Assembly (NCBI GenBank): GCA_025765615.1
Contig: JAIVFJ010000062.1
Location: forward strand, 248,001-312,000
Reading direction: 5' to 3'
From: Zopfochytrium polystomum
Taxonomy: Eukaryota; Chytridiomycota; Chytridiomycetes; Chytridiales; Chytridiaceae
Length of the DNA: 64,000 nt
Below the pieces are notes generated by a model. It ran no database searches. It was not told the origin of the DNA and worked only from the letters and a program-made list of their open reading frames with translations. Below, piece after piece: positions 26,768-63,320 of the stretch. Position 1 is the first letter of the stretch, and every line of letters begins with the position of its first letter. Made by a program: the position numbers and the translations under genes.

Positions 26768-27670
26768 TTACGCAGTATCGGCATTCCCCACCAAGAGACC
26801 AGAGAGAGGAAACGGATTCTTCGTGTCTCCGAGACTCCTCCTCCCTACGGCTAGCCCCGATACGACAGCGACTGAATCGAACTTGTACCGCAGGATCTGC
26901 ATCTTTGACGCCGACAACATTGACTTCTCCCCTTCTGCCGACGACCGCCTCGCCTGCTGCACGCCGCCCGCTCGCACAATCAGCTGATCCTCGGGCGGCG
27001 GCGACTCAGGCCGCATCATGACCCACGTCAGCCTCCGCCTCGGCTTCTTCGCCATCACCGCCTTGCCGGCCTTACCCGCCGCCGCCGCCACGACCTCGGC
27101 GACATCGACGCCGACAGGCACGGGCCTGCTGCACGGGTGGCAATACCGCTGCTGGAGTTTGTGCACGCACAGTGAGTCTGAGCCGCGGGCCGGGTCGTAG
27201 CGGGCGGCGTACTGGGTCCATCGCTTGCGGTGGTGCAGCAGGCGCGGGGAAGAGAGCCCGTGGTGCTCCACAACGTCGTGGAAGAAGGGTTGTTGTTGTT
27301 GGAGATGGTCGTGCGCGGACAGCGGCGGGGAAATGAGGGGCGAGAAGGTGGGGGCGGGTGGGGACGTGATGACGGCGGCTGGCAGGAGGGTGGGCGAGTT
27401 GTTAGTTGAGTGGTGTGAGGAGAAAGAATCTTGTTTGATGATTGGCGGGAGGATGGGGATGTTCGCAGCTGGCGTATTGGATCCGATGCGGTGAGCTCGA
27501 TCGCAGCAGGCGTGGTAGCTGGCACCGCTCGATGGACTCGGCGAGGGCGATGAAGGACTGCAGGAGCCAGGGCGCTCGCCGTCGGCATCGCGTGCTTGGA
27601 GGGGTGCATGAAAAACGGATGTGTAGTAGTAGTTGTAGTGTTGGGTTGGTTGCGGCGGCGCCTGCTGCAT
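26768..27670 (-). CDS. Cys/His-knuckle family, single-knuckle member A1
   Basis: 300 residues from ATG 27670, chosen because a TATA box (TATAAAG, 27807-27801) lies about 135 bp upstream, which puts a Met at 27778 before the expected transcript start. The N-terminus is His/Pro/Gln/Ser-rich. The core reads RKRWTQYAARYDPARGSDSL, then CVHKLQQRYCHPC (C-x-H-x6-C-x2-C), then a basic box RRRLTWVMMRPESPPPEDQL. The tail is shorter than in paralogues and lacks clear NPFS and GSPTP boxes. A small zinc knuckle plus basic patches suggests a nuclear nucleic-acid or protein-binding role; this is inference. Confidence 0.7.
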   Translation of the reverse strand: MQQAPPQPTQHYNYYYTSVFHAPLQARDADGERPGSCSPSSPSPSPSSGASYHACCDRAHRIGSNTPAANIPILPPIIKQDSFSSHHSTNNSPTLLPAAVITSPPAPTFSPLISPPLSAHDHLQQQQPFFHDVVEHHGLSSPRLLHHRKRWTQYAARYDPARGSDSLCVHKLQQRYCHPCSRPVPVGVDVAEVVAAAAGKAGKAVMAKKPRRRLTWVMMRPESPPPEDQLIVRAGGVQQARRSSAEGEKSMLSASKMQILRYKFDSVAVVSGLAVGRRSLGDTKNPFPLSGLLVGNADTA

Positions 27671-27800
27671 CGTGTGGCCAAGGCAATGGTGGTGGTCACT
27701 GTTGGGTGGGTGGGAGTGGTGGGTGGAGCAAGTGGTGGAGTGCGCTTGTGGGGGTGAGTTTCGTCGGTTGCTTGGCAAGAGCGAGAGCGGGGCCAGCCGC

Positions 27801-27807
27801 CTTTATA
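27801..27807 (-). promoter_or_regulatory. TATA box of member A1
   Basis: TATAAAG on the minus strand, 130 bp upstream of the chosen ATG. Confidence 0.5.
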
Positions 27808-28122
27808 TTAGTAAAAGCGGGGCGGGAAAACGAGGTTGCCGCCGCAAGAAAACCGCAGCAGACGGACAGACAGACGGACGGACAGGAGCTCTGTCAGTCT
27901 TTTTTCCGTTTTGAGAAGGAAAGCCCTCCACGCAGGAGATGATTGTTCGTCTTTTCCCCGTTTTGTCGCAATTTCGCCCTGTTTTGTTTCCTTGTTTTGC
28001 GGCTCTTTCCTCTTCGGGACAGGAAATCATGCCAACAAGCAACACAAAACACATTGGATTGGTAAATGGCCAGGCGCAGCTCATGCGCCGCATTGATTTG
28101 ATGGACAATTGTTTATGGCTTG

Positions 28123-28125
<3 letters not shown>

Positions 28126-28188: not shown

Positions 28189-28195
<7 letters not shown>

Positions 28196-28760
28196 TTCTC
28201 TCACTTTCTGTCCGCCCTGACGATCTCGTTCGTTCAAACTTGAAACCCTCCATGATCCTCACGCGCAGATAGACGGACGGCATTGGAGAGAGTTTCAGAT
28301 GCCCACCTGCGGATTGCCAACCCACCTACGATGCGCTCGCCCTCCGTCTTTCACCGCCTGCTTCCTTAGAGGGGAAGCTCCGAACCCGGGAGGAAATTGT
28401 TCACGGATTCAGTCGGCTCTCGTGGAGGCGGGGAGCATAATACTGCTTGCTACCTGAGCGCAGGAAACTTGCCGCTTCCAAAGCTGGTTCTGGCAAACAT
28501 TTTTGAACTGCGGTCTCCTGATCCAGCATCGACAAAACGCCGCCGAAGTGAAACGGCCTCATTTTGAAACATCCCAACATTGGGGAGCAACTCGACGCCC
28601 GCCACACGCTGGGAAACTCACACTCCCACACCCTCATTCTCTCACGCTCGTAATTTTCAGCTTTTCCAAGAATTCAGACTTTTCCCTTACAAAAGCCTGA
28701 TTTCTCAACATTCGGTGCCTCGATCTATAAAAATACTCCCCCAAGACGCAAGAACCGTAA

Positions 28761-29143
28761 ATCCAAGCTCGTCTTCAATGACCTGGCTTCGTGCGACGTC
28801 ATTGTCCGCTTACTACCGTCTGGTCGGGTGCTTTTCCTTCACAAGTTCGTTTTGGTATCCTATTCCGAGTTTTTCAACAAAATGTGGCAGTCTGGACTCG
28901 CCGAAAGCGCTTCGACACGGAGCGGGCAGCCATCGCCAGTCTCGTCCACGCATACCAACAGGCTCAGAATGTGCCTGGATACAAAGCGCAAGAAACCTTC
29001 GTGGTTGACGGAGAGGACTTTATCCCGAGCGCCGTCGCCAAAGATGCTGATAACATTGGATTATTTGCAAATAGACCGTGGAAAGGACGTTTGCAAGGAC
29101 AGGTGCGGAGGTGTTTTGACATTGCACACAATTCCGAATATTG
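28761..29143 (+). pseudogene. BTB-domain relic
   Basis: One frame reads KSKLVFNDLASCDVIVRLLP, then RVLFLHKFVLVSYSEFFNKM and WQSGLAES, clearly the BTB core of the gene at 22446-23464. It continues, after a one-base frame change near 28905, as FDTERAAIASLVHAYQQAQN and a short tail ending at about 29143. A TATAAAAA motif remains at about 28726. No start codon in frame and no second exon are evident; a decayed paralogue. Confidence 0.7.
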
Positions 29144-29724
29144 AGTCCGTTTCCATCCAAGTTTTATGAAAAATTGGTCTCGACCAGAGGTTCAGGAGAA
29201 GATCGTCCACTCGTTCGTCCCGGGATTTTCGGTGGGTGTTCAGGCGAACTCTTTTGGCTGGGTAGGGCGAATGTCCTTTGTTTTTTCTTGGTTGCGTCAT
29301 TTGTGCTCGTGGTATCCCGAGATCAGACAAAAAGAAAAAAGCTTCTTCCCAAGCCACAGCCCCAAATTGGCAAGAATGAGACTCACCTTCCTTCCATATC
29401 CGGATGATTGGCTTGTTTTTTTTTTTTCTTTTTCCCTCCTCGCTTGTGTGGAACGCGCCGTTCGGGAACTTCCTTGGCAATTGCTCGGAGACCTCTCTCC
29501 AAGCTGCTCTACCACCCCACATGGACCGGTCTCCTCACCACTACCAAGCTCCTACCTGTGCCGCGAAGGACTAGGCAATCGTAGCAATGGAGCAGAGCAG
29601 AGAGGGAACGTTTGTGTGTGTGTGTGTGTGTGTGCTTTATTGATCGGCATGATATGCAAAGAAGGAAAGCGGTTTGGCCAAAGAAAAAACTTCAACTCCC
29701 TAAACGAGAAGGGCGTCCAGAAAA

Positions 29725-30731
29725 TCAATGAGGGGACAGCGCCGCACGCTCCATCTCCGGGGTCGGCGACCCGTCAAATGACGTCGCCCTGGACGGCAGG
29801 CGGTCTGTCAGAAGCGCATCTACCGAGAACGGATTCGCCGCTGCTTTCTTCTTCCTCTCGTCGCCAACATCTGCAGCGAGGAACGGCGACGCAGCCGGCG
29901 TCGCCACGGTGCCTCGCGCCGCCAGACCTGACCCCTTCGCTTTCTGACCGCCGTCGTACTGCCCCCGCCACCCGCACCAGGCTGCATCACAACCCACGTC
30001 AGCGTCGCAGCCGCCGCAGCGACACCGCCCCCCTGCCCAACCTGACTCAGCACCGCAGCGGCGGCCGTCGATGGCAGCTCGCCCGTCGGCGCGCAGCACG
30101 TCCTGCAATACCGCTGCTGTCGGCGGTGAATGCAGAACGAGAACTCTTGGCCCTTTCCGTCTTTTCTTGCGGAGTAGTGAGTCCAGCGCTGGACGGCGCG
30201 CGAGCGTCGCGTGGTTGTGGTTGATGTTGTTGGTTGCGCGCGGTCGGCTTGGAGGGCGGCGACGACGGGGGCGGTGTTGAGGGTGGCGGAGGGGAGAAGA
30301 GTGGGAGGGAGAGGCGGGGTCATGGTGCCGAGTGGGGACAAGGATGGGATGGTGGGGGTTGGGTACGGGTCTTGGCGATAGGACGGTGTTGTAGTCGTGG
30401 TGCGAAAGCGGTTTGCAGTAGTGATACTCGACTTGGTGGCATTGGTGATGCTCTGTGCAGCAGCGGGAGGTCCGGAGAGCAGGATCGGGAGAGTGGCGAA
30501 CCGCGGGTGCGGGCTGGTGGAGGTACAGGAAGGCTGTAAGGCGAGTAGCTTGCAGTAGGAGTGTATGGGTGATGGCGTTTTGTAGTTGTGGTCGTGGTGG
30601 TTATGTTGGTGCGAGTGGTAGGGGCTTGAAGGGTCGTGGTGGTGGTGCGGCGAGTTGTGGACGTTGTGGTCGTGGGCGTGTGCGGCCAAGGTCTGTCGGA
30701 GACGGTTGTCCGCGTCGTCTCGGCACGCGGT
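29725..30731 (-). pseudogene. Cys/His-knuckle family member A2 (one frame break)
   Basis: Start at 30731 in the context CCGCCATGACCGCG, shared with A3. His/Pro/Thr-rich N-terminus; core VQRWTHYSARKDGKGQEFSF and CIHRRQQRYCRTC; then ATLTWVVMQPGAGGGG. The tail that A3 has in frame (VATPAASPFLAADVGDERKK; NPFSVDALLT; SFDGSPTPEMERAA) is present here only after a one-base shift at about 29955-29985, in a G-rich stretch, ending at 29725. Everything else is well preserved, so the break is recent or an assembly error. Confidence 0.7.
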
Positions 30732-31787
30732 CATGGCGGAAGCAGTGAAGAAGTGGGGCTGTGTCATGTGCGAGTCGAGACGGAACGAAGTGAGTATATT
30801 GTTTGATTTTTTTTTCTTTTATTTCGTCGGTTTTTATCAACAAATTCTTGGCTTTTCCATTTTTCCTTTGTCCCCATCTCTTCGGTGTTTGCTCTTCCAG
30901 CTAGATTCCGACCACGTCCCTCCAATTTCCGCATTCAGATCCACTCTTCCAAAAACGGCAGTCTGTTGTTCGCAAAATTTTTTTCTTGTAAGTCAAAACC
31001 ACATTTGGGGACCCACAACAACACCTATGCCTTGTTTGGAACGTTTTTTAAAAAACCGTCGGACAGACTGAATAAAACGGATTTTCGTTGGGATGCAGTT
31101 CGTCACACCAGTCGGTTCCTTTCTAAAAACGAACAGAACTTAGAAAAAACTCTGATCGTTTCCGGTGGGCTTCTTTGAGGTGCACTGGACGGCAAGAATT
31201 TGCTTCCCGAAAATCAAACGTCTGTGAAGGGTTCGCTTTCCTAGCCCCACCGCTTGCCATTTTGGCCGAAAGCACCTCGGGATATCATGAGGCTCACTGA
31301 ATGACTGCAAGAAAATCTCGCTTAATCGCAACAAGCGAACGGTGAAACCGTGTCATTTCGTTGTTTCTTATCGCTACGTCACAGGGACGCCTCAACTCGA
31401 TGCGGCCAAAACATGCAACCAAAAATTTTTTTCTCTTTCACTTTGCGCCACAACCAAAATTGGCAAGTGCGAGACTCACCCTCCTTCCAAAACGGGTAGA
31501 TGTGTGTTATTGTGATTTTAATTTCTGGTTCCGACCTTCGGCTCTGGAGCGGAGCGCCGCCTTTCAGGCCTTTCTTGGCAATCAGTCTCCACTCCGAGCG
31601 ACACCGCCACCCCACGTCACATCGACTCCTTAGACTAACCGAGGCTCTACTTGCACTGTGATAAACGCAAACGCCCAACCTGCGAGAGTGTTGGCTGTAT
31701 TGGTTCATGATATGCAAAAAAAGAAAGGGAAGCGGTAGGCCGAAACAACTACAAATCCTTAATCGAAAAGTGCACGGTAGAAGTAAA

Positions 31788-32912
31788 TCAACGTGGTGAA
31801 CCCGCCGCACGCTCCACCTCCGGTGTCGGCGACCCATCAAACGACGACGATGTCGCCCTGGACGACCCTTCTGTCAGCAGCGCATCCACCGAGAACGGGT
31901 TCGCCGCAACTCTCTTCCTTCTCTCGTCCCCAACATCCGTCACGACAGCAGCGAGGAACGGCGACGCAGCCGGCGTCGCCACAGCGCTCGCGCCGCCGCC
32001 GCCGGGCCTCTCCGACTCGCTCCCACTCTCCGACCGCCGTCTACCCCCCGCACCCGCGCCAGGCTGCATCACAACCCACGTCAACGTCCCCGCGGCCGCC
32101 GCCACCGCCGCAGCCGCAGGACTGGCGGCCGCGGAGGACGGCAGCTCCCCCGTCGGCGCGCAGCACGTCCGGCAGTATCGCTGCTGCCGGCGGTGGATGC
32201 AGAACGAGAATCCGTCGCCCTTGGAGTCCTTTCGCGCCGAGTAGTGCGTCCAGCGTTGGACGGGGCGCGGGCGGCGCGTGGCGGGTAACGTTGCTGGTTT
32301 TGCGTGGTGGTCTGCTTGAAGAGCTGCGACGACGGGGGCGGTGTTGAGGGTGGTCTGGGGCGTTGGGAGGGGAGTGGGGGGCAGGGGTGGGGTGATGGTG
32401 CCGAGTGGGGAGAAGGATGGGGTGGTGGTGGGGGTCGGGAGCGGGTCTTGGCGATAGGTGGTCCTGTGGTCGTGGTGGAAGAGAGGTTTGTAGTAGTGGT
32501 GGTGATCCACCGCGGGTCCGTCGACGACAGCGGGGGTGTAGCGGTATCCGACTTGGTGGAAGTAGTCTTGGCAGTGCTCGGTGCTGTAGCCGGAGGTCCG
32601 GTGCGCGGGATCGGGAGAGTGGCGAACCACGGGTGCTGAGTCGTGGTGGTGGTGGTTGGGAGGGCTATAAGGGGAGTAGCTTTCAGCGGGAACGTATGGG
32701 TGATGGCGTTGGTTGTAGGTGTTGCTGTAATGGTGCCGGTGGTGGTAGCTTGAATGGTCGTGGTGGTGGTGTGTTGGCGACGAGTGGTGGTTGTGGTCGT
32801 GGGAGGGGGCGGCCACTGCCTGCTGCTGCTGCTCTTGCTGGTAGTGGTGGTGGTTGTGGTGGAAGCGGTAGTCGACGGCTGGGTAGTCCGGGCAGTCTCG
32901 GCGCGCGGTCAT
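31788..32912 (-). CDS. Cys/His-knuckle family member A3 (intact, single knuckle)
   Basis: 374 residues in one frame; the reference for the A subgroup. Residues 1-200 are His/Tyr/Pro-rich with a run HHHHD, including FSPLGTITPPLPPTPLPTPQ, which is shared with A2. The core, near 225-265, is RPVQRWTHYSARKDSKGDGF then CIHRRQQRYCRTC (C-x-H-x6-C-x2-C). It is followed by LTWVVMQPGAG, a Ser/Arg-rich spacer, NPFSVDALLTEGSS and a C-terminal SFDGSPTPEVERAAGSP. The last two boxes match those of the two-knuckle (B) members, which shows that A and B are one family. Upstream lies a promoter region conserved with A2. Function unknown; nuclear localisation is inferred from the basic boxes. Confidence 0.8.
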   Translation of the reverse strand: MTARRDCPDYPAVDYRFHHNHHHYQQEQQQQAVAAPSHDHNHHSSPTHHHHDHSSYHHRHHYSNTYNQRHHPYVPAESYSPYSPPNHHHHDSAPVVRHSPDPAHRTSGYSTEHCQDYFHQVGYRYTPAVVDGPAVDHHHYYKPLFHHDHRTTYRQDPLPTPTTTPSFSPLGTITPPLPPTPLPTPQTTLNTAPVVAALQADHHAKPATLPATRRPRPVQRWTHYSARKDSKGDGFSFCIHRRQQRYCRTCCAPTGELPSSAAASPAAAAVAAAAGTLTWVVMQPGAGAGGRRRSESGSESERPGGGGASAVATPAASPFLAAVVTDVGDERRKRVAANPFSVDALLTEGSSRATSSSFDGSPTPEVERAAGSPR

Positions 32913-34290: not shown

Positions 34291-35631
34291 CTACCACCGG
34301 CCTGCAAGAGCACCAGGGCCAACGCAAACCCAAACAAGGCCTTGATTCGTGGTACGAATCAAAAAAGAAAAGAACAGGGCCTCAACAATTCCATCGGCCG
34401 ACATTTCGAGTACCTGCCCATCTTCCTCCTCCAGATCGGGTGTGGGTGAGCCTTCAAAATTGTCATCGTCGTCGCCATCAGAGTGCACTTGGTCCGCCGC
34501 AGCCGCCACTATCCTGTCCCGGGACTCGTGCTTGACAGCGCAGGGAGGCGACGAAACCCCGAGCAGCGCGTCCACCGAGAAAAGGTTCTTTGCGGGACGA
34601 GGCGACCCAGACGGGCTCGGGTACTCGGTCTTTCCGGTCGGCAAGGGTCGCGTCGCCGCCGCCGTGGCCGTCGTCGTCGCATCGACCTTCTTCACATCCA
34701 AAGCTGTCGACAGCTTCAGATCCACCGGCTCCCCCGTCGCCGGCCTCCATCTCCTCACAACCTCATTACGGCGGAGGCGGCGGCGGCGGCGGCGGCACCC
34801 ACGTCCTCGGTCCCCTTATCCTCTTCCTTCCCTTCACGCCGCCCGCGGTCTCCCCCTCACCCTCCCTCGCCGCCGCAGTCCTCCTTGCACAACCGGCACC
34901 CCTCCCTCCGGCGCCGGTGAATGCAGATCGACCCGCCGCCGTGGCCGAGGTTGAAGCAGTCGACACACTGGGTGCGGCGGCGGCCGTGGGCGCAGCGGGC
35001 GGAGCGCTTTGCCGGTGGCAGTGATGACGTAGGCTGTGGTGGGTTTGGTGGGTGGCGGTGGTGGTGGCGGGGTCAGGGTGGGTGTGGGTTTGGGGGTATG
35101 AGGGATTGACGTGGATGTAGGGTTGGTTGAGGCGGTTGTGTGTTTGGATGGTGCGGTGGGCTTTGAGGTGGCGGCGGCTTCAGGAGGCATGGGCGTTGGT
35201 CCGGGTGCGGGTTGCGGTGGTGAGGCCTTCGACGGCCGTGGCTTTCTAGGCGAGGAGGGTTGGTTCTGCGCTTCGATGGCAAGAGGTGGCCGGGCAGGGA
35301 ACGGAGAACCAAACTGGACCAGCTGGCCCTGCCCCAAGAAGGGCACGGCAACGGGGGCTCCGGGGGCAGGAGTAAAGTACTGGAACCCCGTGGTGAAGAT
35401 GGTTTGTGCGTGGGCGTACTGGCCAGGCTGCACGCCGACGGGAAGGACGATTTGGTGGTATACTGGACTTTGATGATGATGAGGGGGTTGAGGAAAGGGG
35501 ACGAAAGTGACGGAAGGGGGCTGCACGAGAACGTGCGTCGTTGTCGCCGTCGTCGTCGTCGCCGTCGCCGTTGTTGTTGACGTTGACGTTGACGTTGGGG
35601 GCCTGGCGTGCTGTTGCGGTTGGTGGTGCAT
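34291..35631 (-). pseudogene. Cys/His-knuckle family member B1 (several frame breaks)
   Basis: ATG 35631 (MHHQPQQHARPP) opens a Thr/Pro/Gln-rich N-terminal region of about 195 residues in one frame. The two-knuckle core is in a second frame: RCAHGRRRTQCVDCFNLGHG, then SICIHRRRREGCRLC. The basic box RKRIRGPRTWVPPPPPPP is in a third frame, and the tail (NLFSVDALLGVSS; DDDDNFEGSPTPDLEEEDGQ) is back in the first, ending at 34291. All five family modules are present in order, so the gene is either newly broken or affected by several one-base assembly errors in GC-rich repeats. Confidence 0.7.
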
Positions 35632-37107
35632 GTTTCGCTGGACTGCAATAACTTTTTCTTTCTTCTTTGCGTTGTCTTTTTTCTCCCTTTTTGCTCTTTT
35701 GCGTTATTCGACTGGTCTGTCTGTCTGTCTGTCTGTCTGTCATTATCGCTTTTTTCCGTGTTCCTTGTCTCGGCGCGTGCGTGCGTTGCGTTGGGCTCAA
35801 AGATGGTTGGGCTTTCGAGCCTTATTGACTTGGAGGTGTCTTTTTCTTTCTGTTCTTTTCTTGTTTTCTTTTTCTTTTTTTTTTTCTTCTTTTCTTCCAA
35901 AACAAAAGGCCGTCTGCCGCACATCGCAAGGGAGAGTGAGAACAAGGAAGGAAGGACGGGAAGAGAACGCACGCAAAGGGAAGGAGACTGAGCGCGGTCG
36001 GGTGTTCGAGAGGAGGAGGAGGAAGAGGAGGAGGAGGAGGAGGAGGAGAAGAAGAAGAAAAGAAGAAAAAAACATCGAGACCCGAACCGGAAGCCTCCTT
36101 TTTGGTGCATGCACGCGCCCCGCGCTCCACCCACCCGCCCGCGGGCGCCCAGTCCCCCTTTCGATGGACTCCGGCGGCCCGGCCCGGCCCGGCCCAGGGG
36201 CGTTGGCACTCCCAATCGGACCTGGTCCGTGTCGCGTCCACGTCGTGCAGAACCAGAACCTGTGCAACAACAAACAATCAACTGGCCTGGCCATGTTAAA
36301 GGAGGCTGCCACCCCCCCTCGCGTGCACCATGCACGGGATATGGACTTAAATAGATTGACCTATCAGAGAGAGCAAAAGCATCGAGGGAAGCGTTTTTCG
36401 TGGGCTTGCGACATTCACCCTGTCCACCATGTCCACCCTCCCCCGCGTGTTGGAATGTGCGTGGCGGAAAAATTGTTTCGTTAAATCCTGGAGAGGAAGG
36501 GCTTTATTTATTTATTTATTAAATGCGCATTTTCGGACGGCGTGGATCAGGCTTGACGATCTTGGACGACGACGACGCCGCAAAACTAAAATTTGACTGC
36601 TGCATCGCACGAAGCGTACCATATACAGTAAATACTTGGATGAACCGGCGGCCGACTCTCATCTCACATGGTCGTCCTCGTTGCAGCATCCTCCTCCTCC
36701 TCCTCCTCCTTCTTCTCCTCCTCCATTTTAAGCAGCTTGGATGGATGGATGAAAGAAGGCCCGGACATTGGTACTCACAGGATCAATCATCATCAACGAG
36801 CCATTCCACTCACTGGCACCCCCAAAGTCATAATACCTACGGCCTCAGCCAGACAATCATACTCCCAATTTTTTTGCCTTTTTTTCTCGGCATTAAGGCG
36901 CTTAGCAAGCGAAGGGGCCACACGGCTGATGGGACGCGATTATCCCAGTGAAAGCGAACCAGCCAGAAAAGATGGCCCAGTTTTCTGCGGGTTCCCCTGC
37001 CCCGTCTTCCTGCCAAAAAATTCACCGACTGTCGTCTGACGGTTGCACGCGCGAAAATCCGAAAAAGACGGCCACGCATCCAGTTAAGACATGAAAAAGA
37101 ATGCATA

Positions 37108-37200: not shown

Positions 37201-37201
<1 letters not shown>

Positions 37202-43319: not shown

Positions 43320-43502
43320 TTGGATTATGTGCTTTATTCTCAAACTACCTCATTCACGATGCTCACGATGTGCCCACTACATGACGAATAAGATTTATAA
43401 AGTGCAAATGCAGCCACTGAAGTTCAAATAGTTATGACAGGGATGTTCTTGGAGCTGTTTTCAAAAAGCCATCGCATAAAGCACTATCAGAGCAGTAGGT
43501 GG

Positions 43503-46630: not shown

Positions 46631-46873
46631 CTACACATCGTCCATCGCAACGTCCCCACCGAGCACCAGCGTGGGTGACCCTTCGAACGACGACTGCGAT
46701 TCATCCGATCCCACCTCTCCGCCCTCCAAAGACCGCAGCGACGGCGACGGTGCGCACGACCGCTCTCGCCGCGTGCCCAGCAGCGCCTCGATCGAGAACG
46801 ACTTCGAGCCACCCCTCGACGCCGATGACTCGAAGGCGCGTATGATGACGACGACGACGACGACGGCACCCAC
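46631..46873 (-). pseudogene. Cys/His-knuckle family member B2 (C-terminal remnant)
   Basis: Only the tail is left: SSASRGGSKSFSIEALLGTR and, about 35 residues on, SSFEGSPTLVLGGDVAMDDV, both aligned to the end of member B3. N-terminal region, knuckles and basic box are missing. The sequence passes straight into the repeat (46920-47080) that lies upstream of B3 at 50460-50620, so a deletion of about 1.2 kb removed the 5' part of this copy. Confidence 0.75.
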
Positions 46874-47175
46874 ACCGTGCCAACAGACTCCATTCCCGTC
46901 CCCTCTCCCGCCCGCCCCTCCTCCTGTCCCTCTTTCTCTGGCCTGTCTTTCCCGTGGAGGGCTTTCGTGGCCACCCCACGATCAAAACATGCCTCCACCA
47001 AACACCACCATACAAAAAAAAAACAGAAAAGAAGCATCAAAGCGAAAGAGAGCAGCAAGCCGAGACACGCAAGGTCTCATTCAACACGGTAGGCCGCAGC
47101 CAGTCTTTTCGGGCGTCCGAACCCGGCGTCTCCAGCCGGGGCGTGCAGAGCGTCGAGTTGGACGGCGAAGCTCTC

Positions 47176-48683: not shown

Positions 48684-49943
48684 TTACCCGCCGAGCACCG
48701 GCGTGGGCGACCCTTCAAACAACGACCGCGACTCATCTTCCTCCTCATCGTCCTCCTCCACGCTCCCGGAACCCCGCGGCGATGGCGATGGCACGCACGA
48801 CCAATCTCGCCGCGTGCCCAGCAGCGCCTCGATCGAGAACGGGTTCGAGCCACCCCTCGACGCCGATGACTCGGAAGGCGCGCGTAATGACGACGGCGAC
48901 GCCGCCGATCGCACTCGCATCGTGCCCGCCCCACCTCCCGCCCGCGCCACCCCCTCCCCCTCCCCCTCCTGCACAAGAACAACAAACCTCCTCCTCCTCC
49001 GTCTCGGCAACACGCCCTCCGGCGGCGGCGGCGGCCTCGCGACAAACGACCTTGGCCCGCGGATTCGCTTCCTCTTCGCCCTGCCGTCGTCCTCGTCTTT
49101 CTTCGCACCAGCGACCAAAGCTACCCCGACCTCGCGACACGCCTTGCAGACGTCCTTGCGGCGACGGTGGACGCACAGCGAGCCGCCGCCCTGACCGAGC
49201 TCGTAGCAGTCGACGCACTGGGTGCGACGGCGGTGGTGCGGGCATTTCGGAAAACGGCGGGGGAGAGGCTGCGGCGGCGGGGCGGCGGTGGAGGGGTTTG
49301 GTGGAGACGAGGGTGTGGAGGTGGGTGATGTGGTTGTGGTGGTGGGAGGGGTGGAGATGGGGGTTGCTGCGGGCGGAGAGGAGATGGTGGTGGGGGTTGG
49401 CTGGAGGGTAGGGTCTACATGTGGTTGAGGAGTGGTGAATGGTTCGCATCTGTTGACGGATCGGTGCAGGGGTGAAGGGTGCCCGAAGGTGGCTAGTGGT
49501 GGCATTGGAAAGTGTGATCCCTGAAGCGAGTTTGAAGCGCCGGAGCCCGGCGAGGCGATCGCTACAGTCCCCGAAGCGAGCGAGGGCGAGGGCATGGGCG
49601 TGACGAGCTGCGGGCCGCCCACTGTTGGTGAGTCTGTGGCGATCCCAAGCCCTCGGGATCCGTGCAAAGGTGGCGTATCAAAGCGGTGAGTGTGAATGTA
49701 AGAAGCAACGCCTTGAACCCTCCCGTCTTGAACAACACCGGACGGTCGTCCATGGTGGTACAGTATGTTTCCACTTTGCAAAGCGGTGTCAGGACAACCC
49801 ACTCGATCGTACACTATTCGAGAAGTTTCATCCAGGCGGTGCAGAAGGTGGGAGTGTGGATGGGCTGGGATGGTGAAGGAGCCCAAATGCACCGGATGAT
49901 AGTAGATCGCCATGTTTGGCGATAGGAACGGAGTAGACTGCAT
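48684..49943 (-). CDS. Cys/His-knuckle family member B3 (intact, two knuckles)
   Basis: 419 residues from ATG 49943, chosen because its MQST start matches B4; upstream Mets in the same frame exist. Ser/Thr/Pro-rich N-terminal 230 residues, then FPKCPHHRRRTQCVDCYELG and SLCVHRRRKDVCKAC, a double C-x2-H-x6-C-x2-C / C-x-H-x6-C-x2-C knuckle. Next are a basic box KRKRIRGPRSFVARPPPPPE, a poly-Arg patch (PRRRRRRF; likely nuclear signal), NPFSIEALLGTRRDW near 366, an acidic stretch (EEDDEEEDESRS) and FEGSPTPVLGG as the last residues. All five modules in one frame. Two SP/TP sites at the extreme C-terminus suggest proline-directed phosphorylation; inference. Confidence 0.82.
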   Translation of the reverse strand: MQSTPFLSPNMAIYYHPVHLGSFTIPAHPHSHLLHRLDETSRIVYDRVGCPDTALQSGNILYHHGRPSGVVQDGRVQGVASYIHTHRFDTPPLHGSRGLGIATDSPTVGGPQLVTPMPSPSLASGTVAIASPGSGASNSLQGSHFPMPPLATFGHPSPLHRSVNRCEPFTTPQPHVDPTLQPTPTTISSPPAATPISTPPTTTTTSPTSTPSSPPNPSTAAPPPQPLPRRFPKCPHHRRRTQCVDCYELGQGGGSLCVHRRRKDVCKACREVGVALVAGAKKDEDDGRAKRKRIRGPRSFVARPPPPPEGVLPRRRRRRFVVLVQEGEGEGVARAGGGAGTMRVRSAASPSSLRAPSESSASRGGSNPFSIEALLGTRRDWSCVPSPSPRGSGSVEEDDEEEDESRSLFEGSPTPVLGG

Positions 49944-51108: not shown

Positions 51109-52389
51109 TTATAGTCCGTCCTTGCCATAATCGTCATCATCACCATCATCGAGCGCAGGCGTCGGCGACCCATCGTACGTCTCGGTCTCGTCGCCGTCGT
51201 CCGATAATGGCGTCTCCAGCCGCGGTGTGCACAGCGTCCCGTCGGACGGAGACCTCTCCTGTCCTCTTGACTTCCTAAACGTAGACGATATCGTCGTCGT
51301 CGGCGCCAGCAGCACCTCGATCGAGAACGGGTTCCCGCCGCGCGCGCGCGAAGAAGAGGAAGATGCCGTCGACGATGCTGACAAAGACGGCGGCGCCGAA
51401 GTGGACGGCAGACGGCCCGAACCGTCCGACTCTCCCGGAGTCGACACCGTCACCGACAACCCTCCCTCCCACGCCTCGTCCACGGGTACAAGAACCCTCC
51501 GCCGCCTCCTCCTCGGCACCACACCCCCCGGCGGCGGTGGCGGCCTCGCGACAAACGATCTCGGCCCGCGGATCCGTTTCTTCTTCTTCCCTTCCTCCTC
51601 CACCGCCGCCGCCGCATTCGCGGGAGAAGCAACCCCCGCCGCGCGGCACGCCTTGCAGACGTCCTTTCGGCGACGGTGGACGCACAGCGAGCCGCCGCCC
51701 TGGCCGAGCTCATAGCAGTCCACGCATTGGGTGCGGCGGCGGTGGTGGGGGCATTTTGCGAAGCGGCGCGTGCGGTGCGGCGGGGCTGGCGGGTGGGTTG
51801 TGGTGGGAGGCTGTGGTGCGTTTGGGAGGAAGCGGGTTGGTGCGGGAGTTGGGGAAGCTGCGTGTGGTGCTGGCAGGGGGAGTGTGGGAAGGGTAGGCGA
51901 GGGCTGTAACGGGCGGACGAACGGGCGTTGCGGGTGGTAGCCTTGAAAATGTGGTGGAGCAGCGGCGAGATCGGTGTCGATACGACTCGCTACTTCCCGT
52001 TTCACGATATTATAGCAGCGATCGAAAGGGACGGGCGGTGCAGAGTGCGAAGGTGACGGTGTCGGTGTTGGTGCTGCGAAGGGCAGGCCCGGGGGCCGCA
52101 CCGCCGCGACGATTGGCGTGCGCAGCCAGAAGGTATCCGAACGTTCGTGGCTGCGCGGCCGCGCAGAGAGCGCATTGTCTGCTGGTCGAGAAGCGTCGCG
52201 TGTGGCTTCGAGAATGGGGATTCTTCCCAGATCGGTACGGTGATAGGGGTACGACGGCCCTGGTGGGCCCGCTTGGTTATGGAAGCTGCTGTGAAGAAGG
52301 TGCGGCGGGTGAGCGGAGAAGCCGGCGACTGGGGGTGAGCCTGTTGGGCGGTAGTGGACAGCATCGAGCGCAGCCGTGGTGGACTGCAT
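51109..52389 (-). CDS. Cys/His-knuckle family member B4 (intact, two knuckles)
   Basis: 426 residues, ATG 52389 (MQSTTAAL). Pro/Ala/His-rich first 210 residues. Knuckles at about 211-248 are identical to B3 over the core (KCPHHRRRTQCVDCYELGQG, then SLCVHRRRKDVCKAC). Basic box KKKKRIRGPRSFVARPPPPP and PRRRRRRVLVPVD, GNPFSIEVLLAPTTTI near 351, then an acidic tail with YDGSPTPALDDGDDDDYGKD near 408. Closest relative of B3; the two differ mostly outside the boxes, which points to selection on the boxes. Same strand as B3, B5 and B6, in head-to-tail array. Confidence 0.82.
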   Translation of the reverse strand: MQSTTAALDAVHYRPTGSPPVAGFSAHPPHLLHSSFHNQAGPPGPSYPYHRTDLGRIPILEATRDASRPADNALSARPRSHERSDTFWLRTPIVAAVRPPGLPFAAPTPTPSPSHSAPPVPFDRCYNIVKREVASRIDTDLAAAPPHFQGYHPQRPFVRPLQPSPTLPTLPLPAPHAASPTPAPTRFLPNAPQPPTTTHPPAPPHRTRRFAKCPHHRRRTQCVDCYELGQGGGSLCVHRRRKDVCKACRAAGVASPANAAAAVEEEGKKKKRIRGPRSFVARPPPPPGGVVPRRRRRRVLVPVDEAWEGGLSVTVSTPGESDGSGRLPSTSAPPSLSASSTASSSSSRARGGNPFSIEVLLAPTTTISSTFRKSRGQERSPSDGTLCTPRLETPLSDDGDETETYDGSPTPALDDGDDDDYGKDGL

Positions 52390-53173: not shown

Positions 53174-54980
53174 TCACGCCACGCTCATCTCCACATCCGC
53201 CCCCTCCTCCACCGCCACCGGCCCCAGGTCCGGCGTCGGCGACCCTTCAAACGCCTCCTCGTCCCGGCCGCCGGCGTCACCGCCGTCAAAGTCCCCGTCG
53301 TCCAGGAGCACCTCTTCCATCCGCGGCGTCGGGAGATCCTCCAGCGGCTCGGCGCGCGGTGCGGGCGTCGACGAAGAGGTTCCTTGCGTCGTCGCGGACG
53401 GCGGGGGTGCAGTGGGGATAGTCGGCAGGGGTGTGGTGGGGCGTATCGAAGCGCTTGTGACGTTGTCCGCTGTGGCAGCTGCGGCAGACAACGATTCCAG
53501 CGTGCTCGTGACAGCGGCGGCAGTTTCGGCGGTAGCGGCCGCGCTCGAAGAACCCGACACATCACCGCCCGCACCAACCGTCCCCTCCGGCCCATCCACT
53601 TCCATCTTCACCGCTGGCCCCTCCCCCGCCTCCACCTTCACCCTCTCCTCCGCCTTCACCCTCAACAAAGCATCCAACGCAAACGGGTTTCCCCCCCCCG
53701 TCGGGACCAACCGCTCCACCCCGTCCACAACAACCCTCACTCGCCTCTTCCTCCTCTTCAACGGCGCGACCGCCGGCTTCGGCGGCGGCGGTGCCGCGAA
53801 CGTCCTCGGCCCCCTGATCCGCCTCCGCCCGACGCCGAGCCGCTTGACGTCCTCCGGGCAGTAAGGGCACCCGTCGCGGCGCCGGCGGTGCACGCAGATG
53901 GAGCCGCCGCCGTGGCCGAGCTCGAAGCAGTGGATGCATTGAGTGCGCCGGCGGCCGTGCGGGCATTTGGGGGGGCCGCGTTTTTTGCTTTTTGGGTGGG
54001 GTTGTGGATGTTGTTGTTGGGTCGGTGGGGGTCGCGGTTGGGGAGGTGGGGGCGGTCGTGATGGAGGGGGGTGCGGTTGGGGAGGGGAGGACGACGGGTG
54101 AGGGTGAGTGGGCGGGATCGGGTGCTGCTGGAGGCTGCTGTTCGGGATTGACAGAGGCCGCACGGACGTCGGGTGTTGCGTCGGGTCTTGGTGCGGTGGG
54201 TGTCCTGTTCTGCTTTGGCTTCGACTTGGCGGCGGCGGGTGTCGGTGACGGGCCAGGGGTCGGCGCGACGGCTTCCTTCAGGGCGGCCAGCGGCGTCACC
54301 GGTGTCGGGGTCTTCTTCTTTCCCTTCTTCGCCTCCTTCGACGATGGCGTTGGCGGTGGTGGGGACAGCGCAAAGACGGCGGACGGGGAGATCAAGGACG
54401 CTGTGGAGGTTGCGACGGGCGACGGTGCACCTGTTGCTGTTGCTGTTGCTGTTGCGGCGTCGCTCGCGGGGTTGCTGTTGACTTGGATCGGTGGGATCTG
54501 GAAGGGGCCGCCAGGCGCGGTGGCCAGCTGGTACGCCGCTGGCGCAGCGGCGTAGATCGGAAAGGGAGAAAACTGTGGGTACTGGGAGAAGAGGTGAGGC
54601 TGTTGGTAGTGGTACTGAACGGCGCCCGGTGGTGGTTGCGCCAGCACCAATCCTCCGTGTGTCTGAGGAACAGTGTACACTGGGCGGGGTTGGTGGGGTT
54701 GGAAGGAAGGGTGTTGGTTGACGAATACGAGGCGGACGAGCTGCGGCTGCTGCTGCGGGGATGGAGCCGAGGGCACTCGCGCAGCCATCATTATCGGGGA
54801 GGGGCGTGCCTGAAGGAAGTGAGGCTGTGGGGGCAGATAGTACGGCATCTGCTGCTGCTGTAGGAGGGGCACGGGCGATGCGGCAAAGGGAGCTGGCTGC
54901 AGTTGCAGGCGCGGCGGGGAGGCAATCACTGGTTGCGGGACCGTTGTCGTTGTGGGGGTCTGTACGATGTTCTGCTCCAT
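53174..54980 (-). pseudogene. Cys/His-knuckle family member B5 (one frame break)
   Basis: ATG 54980 (MEQNIVQTPTTTTVPQPVI) opens a Pro/Gln/Thr/Ala-rich region of about 330 residues ending TTPPKKQKT. The rest is in another frame from about 53985: KSKKRGPPKCPHGRRRTQCI, then SICVHRRRRDGCPYC, GRRRIRGPRTFAAPPPPKP, NPFALDALLRVK and EEAFEGSPTPDLGPVAVEEG, ending at 53174. B6 reads through the same junction (KKKKRGPPKC) in one frame, so a single base is off in the A/C-rich stretch about 53969-53995. All five modules preserved; recent break or assembly error. Confidence 0.75.
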
Positions 54981-55796: not shown

Positions 55797-57566
55797 TCAC
55801 GCCGCCACGGGAGACGCCGGGCCAAGCTCGGGCGTCGGCGACCCCTCGTACGCGATCTCGCCCTCCTCGATCTCACCCTCCTCCAAGTCCACTTCCTCCT
55901 CGTCGTCCGTCGCCTCAGTCCACTCGGTCCCCTCCGTCATCCCCCTCTCCCCCCTCGCCGCCGCTTCCGCTGCCAGCAACGTATCCACCGAAAACGGGTT
56001 CGCCCCCTCCCCCTCTCCCACCGCCGCCGCCTCTCCAACCCCCTGTGCCGCCCCCGCCATCTTCAACCTCCTCGCCATCTCCATCTCCTCCGCCGTCCGC
56101 CGCCTCCTCCTCTTCACCGGCGCCACCGCCGGCTTCGGCGGCGGCGCCTCGACGTACGTCCTTGGCCCGCGGATCCGCTTCCGTCCGACACCCAGTTTCT
56201 TGACGTCCTCGGGGCAGTGCGGGCACCCGTCGCGCCTGCGTCGGTGCACGCAGATGGAGCCGCCGCCGTGGCCGAGCTCGTAGCAGGAGATGCATTGGGT
56301 GCGGCGGCGGCCGTGTGGGCATTTGGGGGGGCCGCGTTTTTTCTTTTTTTGTGGCGGGACTGTGGTGGTGGGGTCCGAGGGGGTGGGTGGTGGTGCGGGT
56401 GCGGCGGTTGTGGTGGTTGGTTCGGTGGCGGTAGTGGGAGTGGGTTCGGGTTTTGAAACGGCGAGCAAGGGAGAGTGTGGGGTGGTCGTTCTTTGGGCTG
56501 GCCGTGCGTCGACGGTCGAGACATCTTTTTCGACCGAGACAGGTGGCGCCACCGCCACCGACGCCGCCACCGGTGCGTCTTTGGCAGCCGTCGCAGTCGA
56601 CGTCGAAGCCGAGGCCCGGCGCGACGGCGTGGCTTTAGGACTCGCGGGTGGAGCACCCATCGGCGTCGTGGGTGGAGTCAGGTTCTTGTCCCCAGTGGCG
56701 GTGGTCGTTGTGGGCAAAGACGCAGACAGGGATGCCGCCACCACAGCCGGAGGCGGCGCCACCCGCGTGCGTTTCGGTTTCGGGCCACCGGATGATGACG
56801 CCGTCGCGGGCGCTGCGCGTTTGCCGTTGGTGGTGGTTGTGGTGGTGGTGGTGGTGGTGCCGCTGCGAGCGGCGGCAGCGGGAGCCTCAGGCGCCGCAGC
56901 CCGCTTCGTACCAGCCGCCGCGGTGCCGCTGCTCGGCTTCTTCACCGGCGCCGATGGTGCAGCCTTTGTCGTCGTCTCCGCCGGGTCCTTCTCCTCAATC
57001 TTCACCGCCACCGCCGGCGCCGCGACCGGCGCCGCCACCGCCGCGGGCGGCGCCTGTCCCATTACAAACATAACCGGCGCCGCACCCGCACCCGGATGCT
57101 GCATTCCAAACGGCGCCGCAAAATACGCTCCACCAGGGCCGGCCTGCACCATCGCGATAGGGCGGGGCTGCGGCGCCGCGAGGTAGACGAGGTTGCTGCC
57201 GGCCGTGGTCGCGACGGCTTGCGGGAACGCGAAAGAGCCGGCTGCTGCTGCGGATGCGGGTATGAAGTAGGGGGTTGCGCCGCCAGCTGGAGAGGCGGAG
57301 GTCGGTGTGGGTGAGCCGGTGGTGGCGGCGGCGTGCATGGGGAAGGGCATGGGCATTTGCATCTGCATTTGCGGGATGAATTGGACGAAGCCCGGGTGTG
57401 GAGCGTGGAAGGGGCGGAATGCATGCATGGCGTGTTGTTGCGCTTGAGCTTGGGCTTGGGCTTGCGCGTGTGCTTGCTGTTGGAGTTGGAGGTGGTGTTG
57501 TTGCTGTTGTTGTTGGTGGTGGGCCAGCGAGGTGCCGGCGGGGGCAGCGACTACGAAGTGCTGCAT
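55797..57566 (-). CDS. Cys/His-knuckle family member B6 (intact, longest)
   Basis: 589 residues from ATG 57566; a TATA box (TATAAA, 57723-57718) lies 150 bp upstream. The first about 400 residues are low complexity: poly-Gln/His, MQMPMPFPMHAAATTG, then Ala/Thr/Pro with poly-Thr. Modules in order: KKKKRGPPKCPHGRRRTQCI at about 415, SICVHRRRRDGCPHC, EDVKKLGVGRKRIRGPRTYV, VKRRRRRTAEEMEMARRL (nuclear-signal-like), NPFSVDTLLAAEAA at about 520, an acidic stretch and, at about 577, YEGSPTPELGPASPVAA to the end. B5 and B6 share DGCP-x-CPEDVK after the second knuckle, which the other copies lack, and so form a sub-pair. Low-complexity plus zinc knuckle plus basic boxes fits a nuclear regulator or RNA-granule protein; inference. 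Confidence 0.82.
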   Translation of the reverse strand: MQHFVVAAPAGTSLAHHQQQQQQHHLQLQQQAHAQAQAQAQAQQHAMHAFRPFHAPHPGFVQFIPQMQMQMPMPFPMHAAATTGSPTPTSASPAGGATPYFIPASAAAAGSFAFPQAVATTAGSNLVYLAAPQPRPIAMVQAGPGGAYFAAPFGMQHPGAGAAPVMFVMGQAPPAAVAAPVAAPAVAVKIEEKDPAETTTKAAPSAPVKKPSSGTAAAGTKRAAAPEAPAAAARSGTTTTTTTTTTNGKRAAPATASSSGGPKPKRTRVAPPPAVVAASLSASLPTTTTATGDKNLTPPTTPMGAPPASPKATPSRRASASTSTATAAKDAPVAASVAVAPPVSVEKDVSTVDARPAQRTTTPHSPLLAVSKPEPTPTTATEPTTTTAAPAPPPTPSDPTTTVPPQKKKKRGPPKCPHGRRRTQCISCYELGHGGGSICVHRRRRDGCPHCPEDVKKLGVGRKRIRGPRTYVEAPPPKPAVAPVKRRRRRTAEEMEMARRLKMAGAAQGVGEAAAVGEGEGANPFSVDTLLAAEAAARGERGMTEGTEWTEATDDEEEVDLEEGEIEEGEIAYEGSPTPELGPASPVAA

Positions 57567-60981: not shown

Positions 60982-61656
60982 TCACTCAGTCCAAAGAGCA
61001 CGGCCGCACGTCGCAGGTCTCGGTGAACTCCGGGTCGACGATAACCACGGACATTCGACTGTACCGTTTGCACGAAATTCAAATGTTGTTCATAATATTG
61101 ATTGCACTTGCGATAAATGAGACGAATAGGAAGGAAGCGAGCCAACCGTTTCCTCTTATCCACGCCCCCCAAAGACAAGGAATATTGTTCTCCAAAGGCG
61201 GCCCCGCACTGCGCCAATCTGAATGGCGGTTGTTGTCCAAGGGAACTGAACGAATATTTGGCAGAAGGTTACGCGTGGGTGGTGAGGGTTTGATCGATTG
61301 TTTGGCAAAGGGTTGCGTTTCGAAGACGGCTGCGCCAACCAGTAGAGTCTTCGCTTCCGCCCTGAGATGCACTTCCGCCGTGCCTGTCGGATCCCAAGAG
61401 CGATTTTTTTTCCCAGTGTCGGAAGAAGCACGTCAAAGCCAAAAAAAATAAATAAAAAAAAAGAATATAACCGGCAGGCATTGAAAATTCAAGCAAACAA
61501 ACAAACAACCGACAAGAGCCGGTGTCGGGCGGAACCTGTTGCCTTCCACGCACGCTACTCTGCAATGCGTATAAATGATTGACACTTCTCTGCCTCACCA
61601 TCCACCAACCGTCATCCGTGCCAAGTCGAGGAAGTGCTGCCACTACGCAAGCTCCA
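60982..61656. other. Divergent promoter region between ICP55 and member B7
   Basis: No gene recognised. AT-rich near 61440-61490; a TATA box TATAAAT at 61570-61576 is 81 bp before the B7 ATG. Confidence 0.5.
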
Positions 61657-62406
61657 ATGCACTCGTACCACGGAATCTACTCATCTTCAGCTGTCAGAAG
61701 CAGCTGCGACTGCAACTATTGCACCTCGGTGGTGCACCGTCAACAGTCCCAGATCTCCGCCTACTCGCCCGCAGAATACGCAGGGGAGCAGCAACACCCG
61801 ATTCCACCCATCCACTACACCCCAAACTTCTCCAACTACTATCCATCGCCCCCATCTTCATTTCCACAACCGACTCCACAACAGCAAGCAACTAACGACG
61901 CCCAGCTCAGGTCTTGCCCAACCTGCGATGCTGAGCAGCGGTTTCAGCTGGTGCTAATCCCATGCTCCTCATCGGCGATTTGCAGCGCCACCGGTTATCA
62001 ATATACCCACGACCCTCACGGCCAGCAGCATCCACCACACCATCCAATCACAAGCCACTATCACAGTAGTTCCGGCGCAGGCCTCTTCACCGTGCACTCC
62101 GCCTCGTACCCATCCGCCCCATATCATTTTCTGCCACACTCACCCCTGCCGCCGCCCCCGCCAACCCCACCCGCAAGCAAACCAACCCCAAAATGCCCGC
62201 ACGGCAAGCGCCGCACGCAGTGCCTCTCCTGCTTCGACCTCGGTCAGGGCGGCGGATCGATCTGCGCGCACCGTCGCCGCAAGGACCTGTGCTCGTGGTG
62301 CAAGGAGTACGTCCGGCGCGGATTGGAGCGGCCACGGGTGCCGGGGATGCGGGATACGAGGCGGCGGGCGCACGCGGATAGTCTAGCGTCTTCTGGGACC
62401 GTGTGA
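61657..62406 (+). CDS. Cys/His-knuckle family member B7 (intact, short tail)
   Basis: 249 residues from ATG 61657 (TATA box at 61570). N-terminus is Ser/Tyr/His/Pro-rich and unusual in having extra Cys pairs (SSCDCNYC; SCPTCDAEQ). Knuckles at about 182-220: KCPHGKRRTQCLSCFDLGQG then SICAHRRRKDLCSWC. The basic box is replaced by ERPRVPGMRDTRRRAHADSL, and the NPFS-x-LL and GSPTP modules are absent; the protein stops soon after. The only intact member on the plus strand. Either a lineage that lost the tail or the nearest to an ancestral short form. Confidence 0.78.
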   Translation: MHSYHGIYSSSAVRSSCDCNYCTSVVHRQQSQISAYSPAEYAGEQQHPIPPIHYTPNFSNYYPSPPSSFPQPTPQQQATNDAQLRSCPTCDAEQRFQLVLIPCSSSAICSATGYQYTHDPHGQQHPPHHPITSHYHSSSGAGLFTVHSASYPSAPYHFLPHSPLPPPPPTPPASKPTPKCPHGKRRTQCLSCFDLGQGGGSICAHRRRKDLCSWCKEYVRRGLERPRVPGMRDTRRRAHADSLASSGTV

Positions 62407-62899
62407 ACGCGGTGGTGCGGGTGAGGAATCCAGAGAGTTCCGGCGGCACCTGGGCGTACATCGTGGTTCACTCGCCGCGACACTGGTGAATGATTGGGTT
62501 GACTCAACTCAATGGGGGGAATGACGGAGCGTCGTGATTTGAAAAAAAAAATATATTGGATGGGGCAATGCATAATGCAAAAAAAAACACGAGAAACACA
62601 CACGCAAAAAAAAACATGCCCAACACTCTGAAACACACAACAAGACCGCAAACTTCCACTTTCAATCACAGCGCCAAAGCCTTATAAACCGTGCTGAGGC
62701 TTACAGCCCGAACCCCAGCATTCATCGATCCACGCAGCTTATTAGCCCCAGTTCGTGAACCCGAACGGTTGCGGGTACTGCCAACAACGGTGCACCGTCC
62801 CCAAAGCATTCGCAACCTCTGCTGAATTGCACCACACTAACTGTTTCCACTCAATCATCAGCATTCTGACAGCATTCTCGAAATCAGCGGCTCCCCACG
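62407..62899. other. Spacer; no gene seen
   Basis: A-rich tracts around 62537-62600; no gene recognised. Confidence 0.4.
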
Positions 62900-63320
62900 C
62901 AGCGCGCCGTGCGGATCTGCCCTCAGTCGATCAAAATGACCCCCCATCAATAACCATTTTCACTCATTCCGATTTTGAAAAAACCCATATCTTTCCAGTC
63001 CGCCAAAGCTCCTCAACCCCGCAAGCCAACTCCCAATGCCGCACGGAAATCTCCGCTCTCAATGCCTGTCCTGCTTCGACCTGGGCAGGGCGGCGGTTCT
63101 ATCTTCGCCCACCGGCGGCGCAAAGACCTTGCGTTACTGCGAGGAATACATCCGCAACGGGCAGCAGCCGCAGCCGGTACCGGGGATGCGGACGAGGAAA
63201 AGACGACGGCGGCACCGGCCGGTCGCTACTGTGGAGATAAGAGAGATGATGGTGCAGAGGTCGGTAGGCGGCGAGGTTGTGCGGCCTTGGGGGTTTTGGG
63301 TAGACCGTGGTCGGGGTTAG
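62900..63320 (+). pseudogene. Cys/His-knuckle family member B8 (relic of B7)
   Basis: Pieces of the B7 core occur in two frames: MPHGNLRSQCLSCFDLG, then GQGGGSIFAHRRRKD in another frame, then YCEEYIRNGQQPQPVPGMRT back in the first. The first Cys of the knuckle and the Cys of the second knuckle (SIFAH for SICAH) are lost. No start codon or N-terminal region fits. Decayed tandem copy of B7. Confidence 0.7.

Follow-up and report, generated by a model that had tools for sequence, protein, structure and literature searches.

An apparently undescribed, expanded family of paired Cys/His-knuckle proteins with an eh1-like tail box in Zopfochytrium polystomum

Zopfochytrium polystomum, a saprotrophic chytrid, carries an apparently undescribed and greatly expanded family of proteins that combine a pair of Cys/His knuckles with a few short boxes. 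Twelve loci of this family lie in a stretch of 64,000 nucleotides, hereafter called the window, which corresponds to positions 248001-312000 of contig C62 (JAIVFJ010000062.1) in an assembly of ~80 Mb and 761 contigs. The boxes are constrained and recur throughout the genome, which also contains Groucho-like and Tup1 genes. From these elements, the family members may well be nuclear zinc-knuckle transcriptional repressors that recruit Groucho/TLE or Tup1, a reading to which we assign a probability of roughly 0.52.

Modules of the family

The twelve loci were originally predicted from the letters of the window. When the box patterns of this prediction were scanned in all six frames of the window and all 12 loci were read, matches were obtained within 27.1-62.3 kb and none in the first 26 kb, which bears out the existence and position of the cluster. 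The knuckle C-x-H-x6-C-x2-C is present at 10 of the 12 loci, either doubled (34.9, 49.2, 51.7, 53.9, 56.3 and 62.2 kb) or single (27.1, 30.1, 32.2 and 43.8 kb). The first knuckle had been described as C-x2-H-x6-C-x2-C, but this form has no match in the window and both knuckles follow the C-x-H-x6-C-x2-C spacing. In the double-knuckle copies, the linker C-[FY]-[EDN]-[LH]-G-x-G-G-G-S-[ILV]-C connects both units, which together make up one module.

Three further boxes accompany the knuckle. RIRGPR is found at five of the 12 loci and [FY][ED]GSPTP at seven, with an additional GSPTL at 46.7 kb. The originally predicted form NPFS[VI][DE]xLL of the tail box occurs at five loci, while the looser F[STAGP][VIL][DESN]x[LMI][LCIM] occurs at 10, including FALDALL (53.7 kb), FSLDHLL (43.5 kb, in another frame) and a degenerate FPLSGLL (26.8 kb). 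The five modules had been thought to stand in a fixed order. This holds at 48.7, 51.1, 53.2 and 55.8 kb, i.e., at four of the 12 loci, where the knuckle pair, RIRGPR, the F-S-[VI]-[DE]-x-L-L box (FALDALL in the 53.2 kb copy) and GSPTP share one frame, but not at the remaining loci; in the 34.3 kb copy all modules are present but spread over three frames. Single open frames with an ATG as putative start are available for the copies at 31.8, 48.7, 51.1 and 55.8 kb. As predicted, the copies of subgroup A have only one knuckle; they additionally lack RIRGPR, however, and carry W-[TI]-x-Y-x-A-R-[KY]-D upstream of the knuckle instead.

Besides these modules, an extra N-terminal box, approximately [VI]N[LFI]V[FLV]Q[VI][AS]VP, is conserved in the proteins P0009-P0013, P0016, P0017 and P0022. 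The corresponding sequence in the 34.3 kb copy is VYHQIVLP, at window positions 35440-35463.

Constraint on the boxes

The boxes are under purifying selection. From pooled pairwise counts in six subfamilies, the ratio of nonsynonymous to synonymous substitution rates (dN/dS) amounts to 0.03, 0.07, 0.08, 0.09, 0.11 and 0.24 within the boxes, against 0.57-0.71 outside them. The outside values are rough, given the uncertain alignment of the linkers and the non-independence of the pairs, but the contrast itself is not. The set comprises 31 rows and includes alleles and some partial frames. The proportion of synonymous differences (pS) is less different between the two classes, with 0.20-0.38 in the boxes vs 0.28-0.51 outside. 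Selection on the boxes had been part of the original prediction, which named dN/dS inside and outside the boxes as a check, and the outcome supports it.

These values also bear on the suspicion that the loci are chance open reading frames (ORFs) in GC-rich low-complexity DNA, as long spurious ORFs are common in the window. This explanation is already refuted and retains practically no probability, given the dN/dS contrast, the 21 named annotated proteins and the conservation of the boxes across the genome.

The tail box as an eh1-like motif

The tail modules had been presumed to have no parallel in other proteins. The NPFS box is, however, one form of F-[ST]-[VI]-[DE]-x-[LM]-[LC], and its letters fit the eh1 motif that binds Groucho/TLE. 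The published EH1 pattern is FxIxxIL, which docks onto the top face of the WD domain in TLE1 (PMC3419727, in part), and an EH1-like motif is reported for the fungal MATalpha2 protein, which itself works via TUP1 (PMC4901127, in part).

Among the fetched loci, 40 distinct double-knuckle frames were obtained, in 39 of which the tail is 30 residues or longer; these are a subset of the 84 genomic places described below. In the eh1-like pattern as scored, position 3 could be I, V or L, position 6 L, M or I, and position 7 L, C, I or M. Its strict form is present in 32 of the 39 tails and its relaxed form in 35, against an expectation of 0.0025 in total for shuffled tails; the tails are related copies and alleles, and hence not independent events. 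In the portions preceding the knuckle the pattern is absent (0 of 40). Since 32 boxes were observed with 0.0025 expected, the tail box is not a product of chance. Its forms are FSVEALC, FSIEALL, FSIEVLL, FSVEALL, FSVDTLL, FSVDFLL, FSVETLI, FTVEWMC, FSVEWMC, FALDALL and FGIEALC. The relaxed box is also present in 18 of the 21 named Z. polystomum proteins that the searches retrieved, and P0008 has both FSLEALL and FSIEALM.

At the DNA level, the pattern for FSVEALCG has 16 places in the 80 Mb genome and none in the reversed control. All 16 are located at most 140 bases from a family knuckle, as judged by hand comparison with the tblastn places. A looser Leu-Leu pattern, in which other residues are allowed at the second place, has 78 places vs 13 in the control.

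The N-P of the window box is not constant in the wider family. This is relevant for an explanation in which the proteins are NPF endocytic adaptors that bind EH domains through this sequence. While N-P-F indeed opens the box in several window copies, it does so in only 10 of the 35 box-bearing members and FSVE is the part that is kept, which makes this already disfavoured explanation highly improbable.

Corepressor candidates in the same genome

By homology, Z. polystomum encodes Tup1 and a Groucho/TLE-like protein. The Tup_N profile scores over its cut-off on contigs C167 and C56. A single sub-threshold place was obtained with TLE_N, on the minus strand of contig C275 (L064), where the gene has a Q-domain-like N-terminus and WD exons. 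Joined together, its exon pieces align with TLE1 (chain 1gxr) over a single stretch at 111 bits. With the exons joined by eye and TLE1 numbered as chain position + 433, all ten examined top-face positions of TLE1 are identical in the C275 gene. These include V486, C488, R534 and E550, which we take to be top-face positions. The other six, Y532, Y578, L636, F661, L702 and L743, constitute the ring of TLE1 that holds WRPW (PMC3419727, in part).

This Groucho-like protein and its conserved top-face residues are of importance for a different interpretation of the tail box, namely as an activation or Mediator/KIX-type helix, by which nuclear knuckle proteins would activate genes. Many activation helices are short and amphipathic and located in acidic, Pro/Ser-rich tails, and the chytrid box is such a short amphipathic element in such a tail. 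On the other hand, the fixed order F-[ST]-[VI]-[DE]-x-[LM]-[LC] suits eh1 better than the loose acidic activators, and the encoded Groucho-like protein points in the same direction. Gene activation is therefore an unlikely, though serious, alternative.

Family size and spread in the genome

The original prediction had described a twelve-locus cluster, but the family is found genome-wide at about 80 places. In a tblastn search of the whole genome with the core of the 55.8 kb copy, 119 places had E <= 10 and 84 had E < 1e-9, a tally made by hand that includes alleles and two overlapping places on contig C173. Nineteen of the 84 places are on contig C129, between 117 and 181 kb. Both C129 and C173 carry counterparts of the window copies on C62, which implies either that over two haplotypes are represented in the assembly or that the cluster was recently duplicated. 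Subgroup A is local, as the nine of its 15 places with E < 1e-6 are confined to C62, C173 and C129.

As had been proposed, intact copies occur next to broken and truncated ones. For two copies that are broken in the window, the open frame is longer on another contig. The first is the 53.2 kb copy, with an open frame of 738 amino acids (aa) on C129 vs 367 aa in the window and 362 aa on C173. The second is the copy with knuckles at 34.9 kb, for which the likely counterpart at C173:26808 is open over 304 aa vs 71 aa in the window; the tail-box DNA of this 34.3 kb copy recurs identically at C173:27218. A flank comparison of 17 loci showed that the flanking sequence common to close copies can extend to kilobases, whereas distant subfamilies match mainly at the boxes. 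This pattern fits duplication and decay rather than one mobile element with fixed ends, and the copies appear to have spread by tandem and segmental duplication followed by decay. A subtelomeric origin was considered but is not proposed: copies on C76 and C15 are ~27 and 32 kb away from TTAGGG arrays, but four contig ends examined lack telomere repeats and many copies are contig-internal.

A protein-database profile of eight rows retrieved 24 proteins with E <= 10 among 7985 candidates scored: 20 from Z. polystomum, two window proteins, one from Cladochytrium tenue (E 8.6e-15) and one other, P0027. Two single-protein searches returned three proteins and one protein, respectively, all from Z. 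polystomum, and the nr relatives of the 51.1 kb protein are Z. polystomum hypothetical proteins. In these three protein searches, C. tenue is the only organism outside Z. polystomum with the knuckle pair and its linker. Most family proteins read have two knuckle units; subgroup A and P0022 have one, and the nr models P0007 and P0008 have two pairs. Two diverged loci were encountered as well, one on C147 (L066) with a diverged knuckle pair followed by NPLLIEALLA, and one on C42 (L067) with three or more partial knuckle units over two frames.

Knuckle arrays in viral and environmental proteins

The original prediction had likened the knuckle to C-x-H-x-R-x-R-x2-C-x2-C repeats, and such repeats are indeed seen in three arrays. 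The protein P0027 (319 aa) has nine knuckle units, e.g., S-I-C-I-H-K-R-R-R-S-Q-C-I-E-C-G-G, and ends after the array with H-x-D-H-I-x-P ... N-x-Q-P-L-x-A-x-D-N, which is HNH-like by eye. On the IMG/VR viral contig L068, seven units are followed by the same end as in P0027, with 41% identity overall; on viral contig L070, there are three units and the end is a different one. A knuckle array adjoining a nuclease-like end would suggest nucleic-acid binding. These arrays and the chytrid family have in common the C-x-H-x6-C-x2-C unit, the positions of Arg within it and the linker letters G-G-G-S-I-C. In contrast to the arrays, the units of the chytrid family come in pairs with a linker that is five residues longer ([FY][EDN]LGxGGGS), and the RIRGP, eh1-like and GSPTP boxes are found in place of the HNH-like end of P0027 and L068. 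The chytrid family was not found to have long tandem arrays, and reading its ORFs by eye revealed no HNH-like end behind the knuckles.

When viral sequences were scanned with the family profile and with P0027, 41 and two stretches were obtained, respectively, none of which was confirmed. Three loci out of 16 stretches were obtained in the viral scan with a repeat-unit profile, two of them overlapping on one contig; in bacterial and archaeal genomes none of 18 stretches found with this profile was confirmed.

These arrays are relevant for two further explanations. In the first, the family consists of RNA- or other nucleic-acid-binding knuckle proteins, with the boxes serving in splicing or ribonucleoprotein assembly. 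Basic knuckles and Arg-rich flanks are in keeping with this, and the arrays followed by HNH-like stretches suggest contact with nucleic acid, DNA and RNA not being distinguished. Because the eh1-like box and the corepressor partners are left without a clear role, we consider it quite improbable. In the second, the genes are mobile or virus-derived, either transposon-borne or captured from viral HNH-like proteins, and still spreading. The copies are many and dispersed, their knuckle is common to viral-contig proteins, and a Ty3-like element and a DDE transposase are present in the window. However, distant subfamilies among the 17 loci compared have no common flanks or ends, the long flanks between close copies are as in segmental duplicates, the boxes are under purifying selection and, by eye, the family ORFs read show no HNH-like part. 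This origin is thus very unlikely.

Proposed function and significance

The interpretation as corepressor-recruiting regulators involves zinc and DNA binding, a nuclear location and corepressor recruitment, each predicted from the protein letters. The knuckle pair, the basic RIRGP box and the Lys/Arg runs would bind zinc and DNA in the nucleus; the Lys/Arg runs, which surround the knuckle and RIRGP, are in keeping with nuclear import. The best-supported step is the one in which the tail box, FSVEALCG or FSIEALLG, would dock as an eh1-type helix into Groucho/TLE or Tup1. The weakest is that the GSPTP box, with its SP/TP sites, may act as a proline-directed phosphorylation switch. Finally, duplication would have produced many members with one corepressor handle and rapidly changing linkers.

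A number of observations weigh against this interpretation. The eh1-like box is absent from four of the 39 tails (some of them truncated) and from three of the 21 named proteins, its position 7 is often Cys instead of Leu/Ile, and RIRGP is present in only 15 of these 21 proteins. Many matches of the looser Leu-Leu pattern are located away from family places, so the short motif alone is not specific, and a motif as small as EH1 may converge (PMC4901127, in part). Of related species, C. tenue bears out conservation of the boxes only in part: its protein keeps the knuckle pair and the linker but has neither RIRGP nor the eh1-like box. An AlphaFold2 model of the family core has a mean predicted local distance difference test (pLDDT) score of 56.5 and gives no fold support, and the HNH-like ends of the arrays received no Pfam call. 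With regard to the corepressors, TLE_N reaches 31.1 bits on C275 vs a cut-off of 32 when scored exon by exon. In the whole-sequence ranking of this gene another WD-repeat protein (2ymu) comes first, TLE1 second and yeast TUP1 lower, and positions 532, 534, 550 and 743 lie on exons found by eye. The TLE1 substitution L743F has little effect on eh1 binding (PMC3419727, in part); the ring is not eh1-specific, and its conservation in C275 therefore argues for a working peptide-binding face, not for eh1 alone. Likewise, the Tup1 matches show homology only and not an eh1 pocket.

What is new is that the family joins the knuckle of viral and environmental proteins with an already known kind of corepressor motif. 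If the repressor interpretation is true, an early-branching fungus uses on a large scale the animal-style combination of eh1 motif and Groucho-like corepressor, which would bear on when the link between Groucho and eh1 arose in opisthokonts. A knuckle array of viral contigs would, moreover, be tied to a family of cellular regulators. For chytrid biology, it would be a new kind of regulator, built on a knuckle module for which no curated name was found. A more far-reaching idea, speculative and to our judgment improbable, is that a system like that of the KRAB zinc fingers evolved independently here. Paired-knuckle repressors would then be in runaway birth-and-death evolution, nearly all with one Groucho handle, and their changing knuckle and linker letters would track targets such as mobile elements. 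If true, a large family of repressors that recruit Groucho would exist outside animals, on a knuckle common to virus-encoded HNH-like proteins.

Loci and other features of the window

The coordinates of the twelve loci are listed in Table 1, together with five other features of the window. The second BTB/POZ ORF is located between family copies.

Table 1. Family loci and other features, in window positions
Feature	Position	Strand	Details
Ty3-like long terminal repeat (LTR) element	12694-17292		gag, protease, reverse transcriptase, RNase H, integrase and chromodomain matches
DDE_Tnp_4 transposase ORF	19429-20505
U2 spliceosomal RNA gene	21665-21868	-	126.5 bits
BTB/POZ ORF	22688-23524
Subgroup A copy	26771-27802	-	ORF of 344 aa stop to stop; knuckle 27131-27169; degenerate tail box FPLSGLL 26792-26812
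BTB/POZ ORF	28654-29166
Subgroup A copy, broken, two frames	29728-30818	-	knuckle 30096-30134; eh1-like 29809-29829; GSPTP 29758-29778
Subgroup A copy, open, 374 aa from ATG	31791-32912	-	knuckle 32163-32201; eh1-like 31875-31895; GSPTP 31821-31841
Double-knuckle copy, three frames	34294-35703	-	knuckles 34887-34994; RIRGPRT 34802-34822; eh1-like 34561-34581; GSPTP 34438-34458
Subgroup A copy	43493-44489	-	knuckle 43767-43805; FSLDHLL 43493-43513 in another frame; without GSPTP
Tail-only copy	46631-46981	-	FSIEALL 46778-46798; FEGSPTL 46667-46687
Open copy, 419 aa from ATG	48687-49943	-	knuckles 49137-49244; RIRGPRS 49047-49067; FSIEALL 48819-48839; GSPTP 48699-48719
Open copy, 426 aa from ATG	51112-52389	-	knuckles 51646-51753; RIRGPRS 51556-51576; FSIEVLL 51307-51327; GSPTP 51157-51177
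Copy with N-terminal part in another frame	53177-54277	-	knuckles 53858-53965; RIRGPRT 53801-53821; FALDALL 53663-53683; GSPTP 53231-53251
Open copy, 589 aa from ATG	55800-57566	-	knuckles 56214-56321; RIRGPRT 56157-56177; FSVDTLL 55974-55994; GSPTP 55830-55850
Knuckles-only copy, without tail boxes	61579-62403	+	two knuckles 62194-62301
Broken remnant, first cysteine lost	63027-63212	+	parts of the knuckle at 63027-63089 and 63083-63130, in different frames; by eye, no box-pattern match

Comparison with known systems

That the family is undescribed, as originally predicted, agrees with the database searches. None of ten queries passed the cut-off in Pfam and none of four in NCBIfam, with P0027, which is not a family member, included in both sets; a PHROGs scan gave no usable match and the PDB sequences gave no match to the family with E < 1. 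SRP72, SecG, DUF2749, LINC-PINT, Metallothi_Euk2, ribosomal L37 and Acb2_Tad1_hairpin were rejected as matches that were weak or below cut-off. Similarly, no description of the family was found among the papers listed for the knuckle, EsV-1-7, Groucho in chytrids and the genus Zopfochytrium.

Two known knuckle families were compared and rejected. The retroviral knuckle zf-CCHC has the form C-x2-C-x4-H-x4-C, which differs from the chytrid knuckle in ligand order and spacing, and it gave no Pfam match. The EsV-1-7 motif, with C-x4-C-x16-C-x2-H, also differs in spacing from C-x-H-x6-C-x2-C and gave no Pfam match at E <= 10. The EsV-1-7 family, to which IMM of Ectocarpus belongs, does share with the chytrid family a repeated motif, a patchy presence in eukaryotes and viruses and a lineage expansion (PMC7457493, in part).

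For the tail box, two systems are closest. The chytrid box has in common with the EH1/Octapeptide motif of animal factors the core F-x-[IV]-x-x-[LM]-[LC], a short length, a low-complexity setting and an encoded Groucho-like partner. In animals, this motif is carried by Engrailed, MSX, Goosecoid and other factors, where it sits by a homeodomain, forkhead, T-box or Ets domain, whereas the chytrid box sits by a Cys/His knuckle, in a fungal host, and often has Cys at the last position. The second system is MATalpha2-Tup1, in which, as proposed for the chytrid family, a fungal DNA-binding protein with a reported EH1-like motif acts via a Groucho relative (PMC4901127, in part). MATalpha2 combines this motif with a homeodomain and has Ile instead of Phe, while the chytrid family combines it with a knuckle and has Phe.

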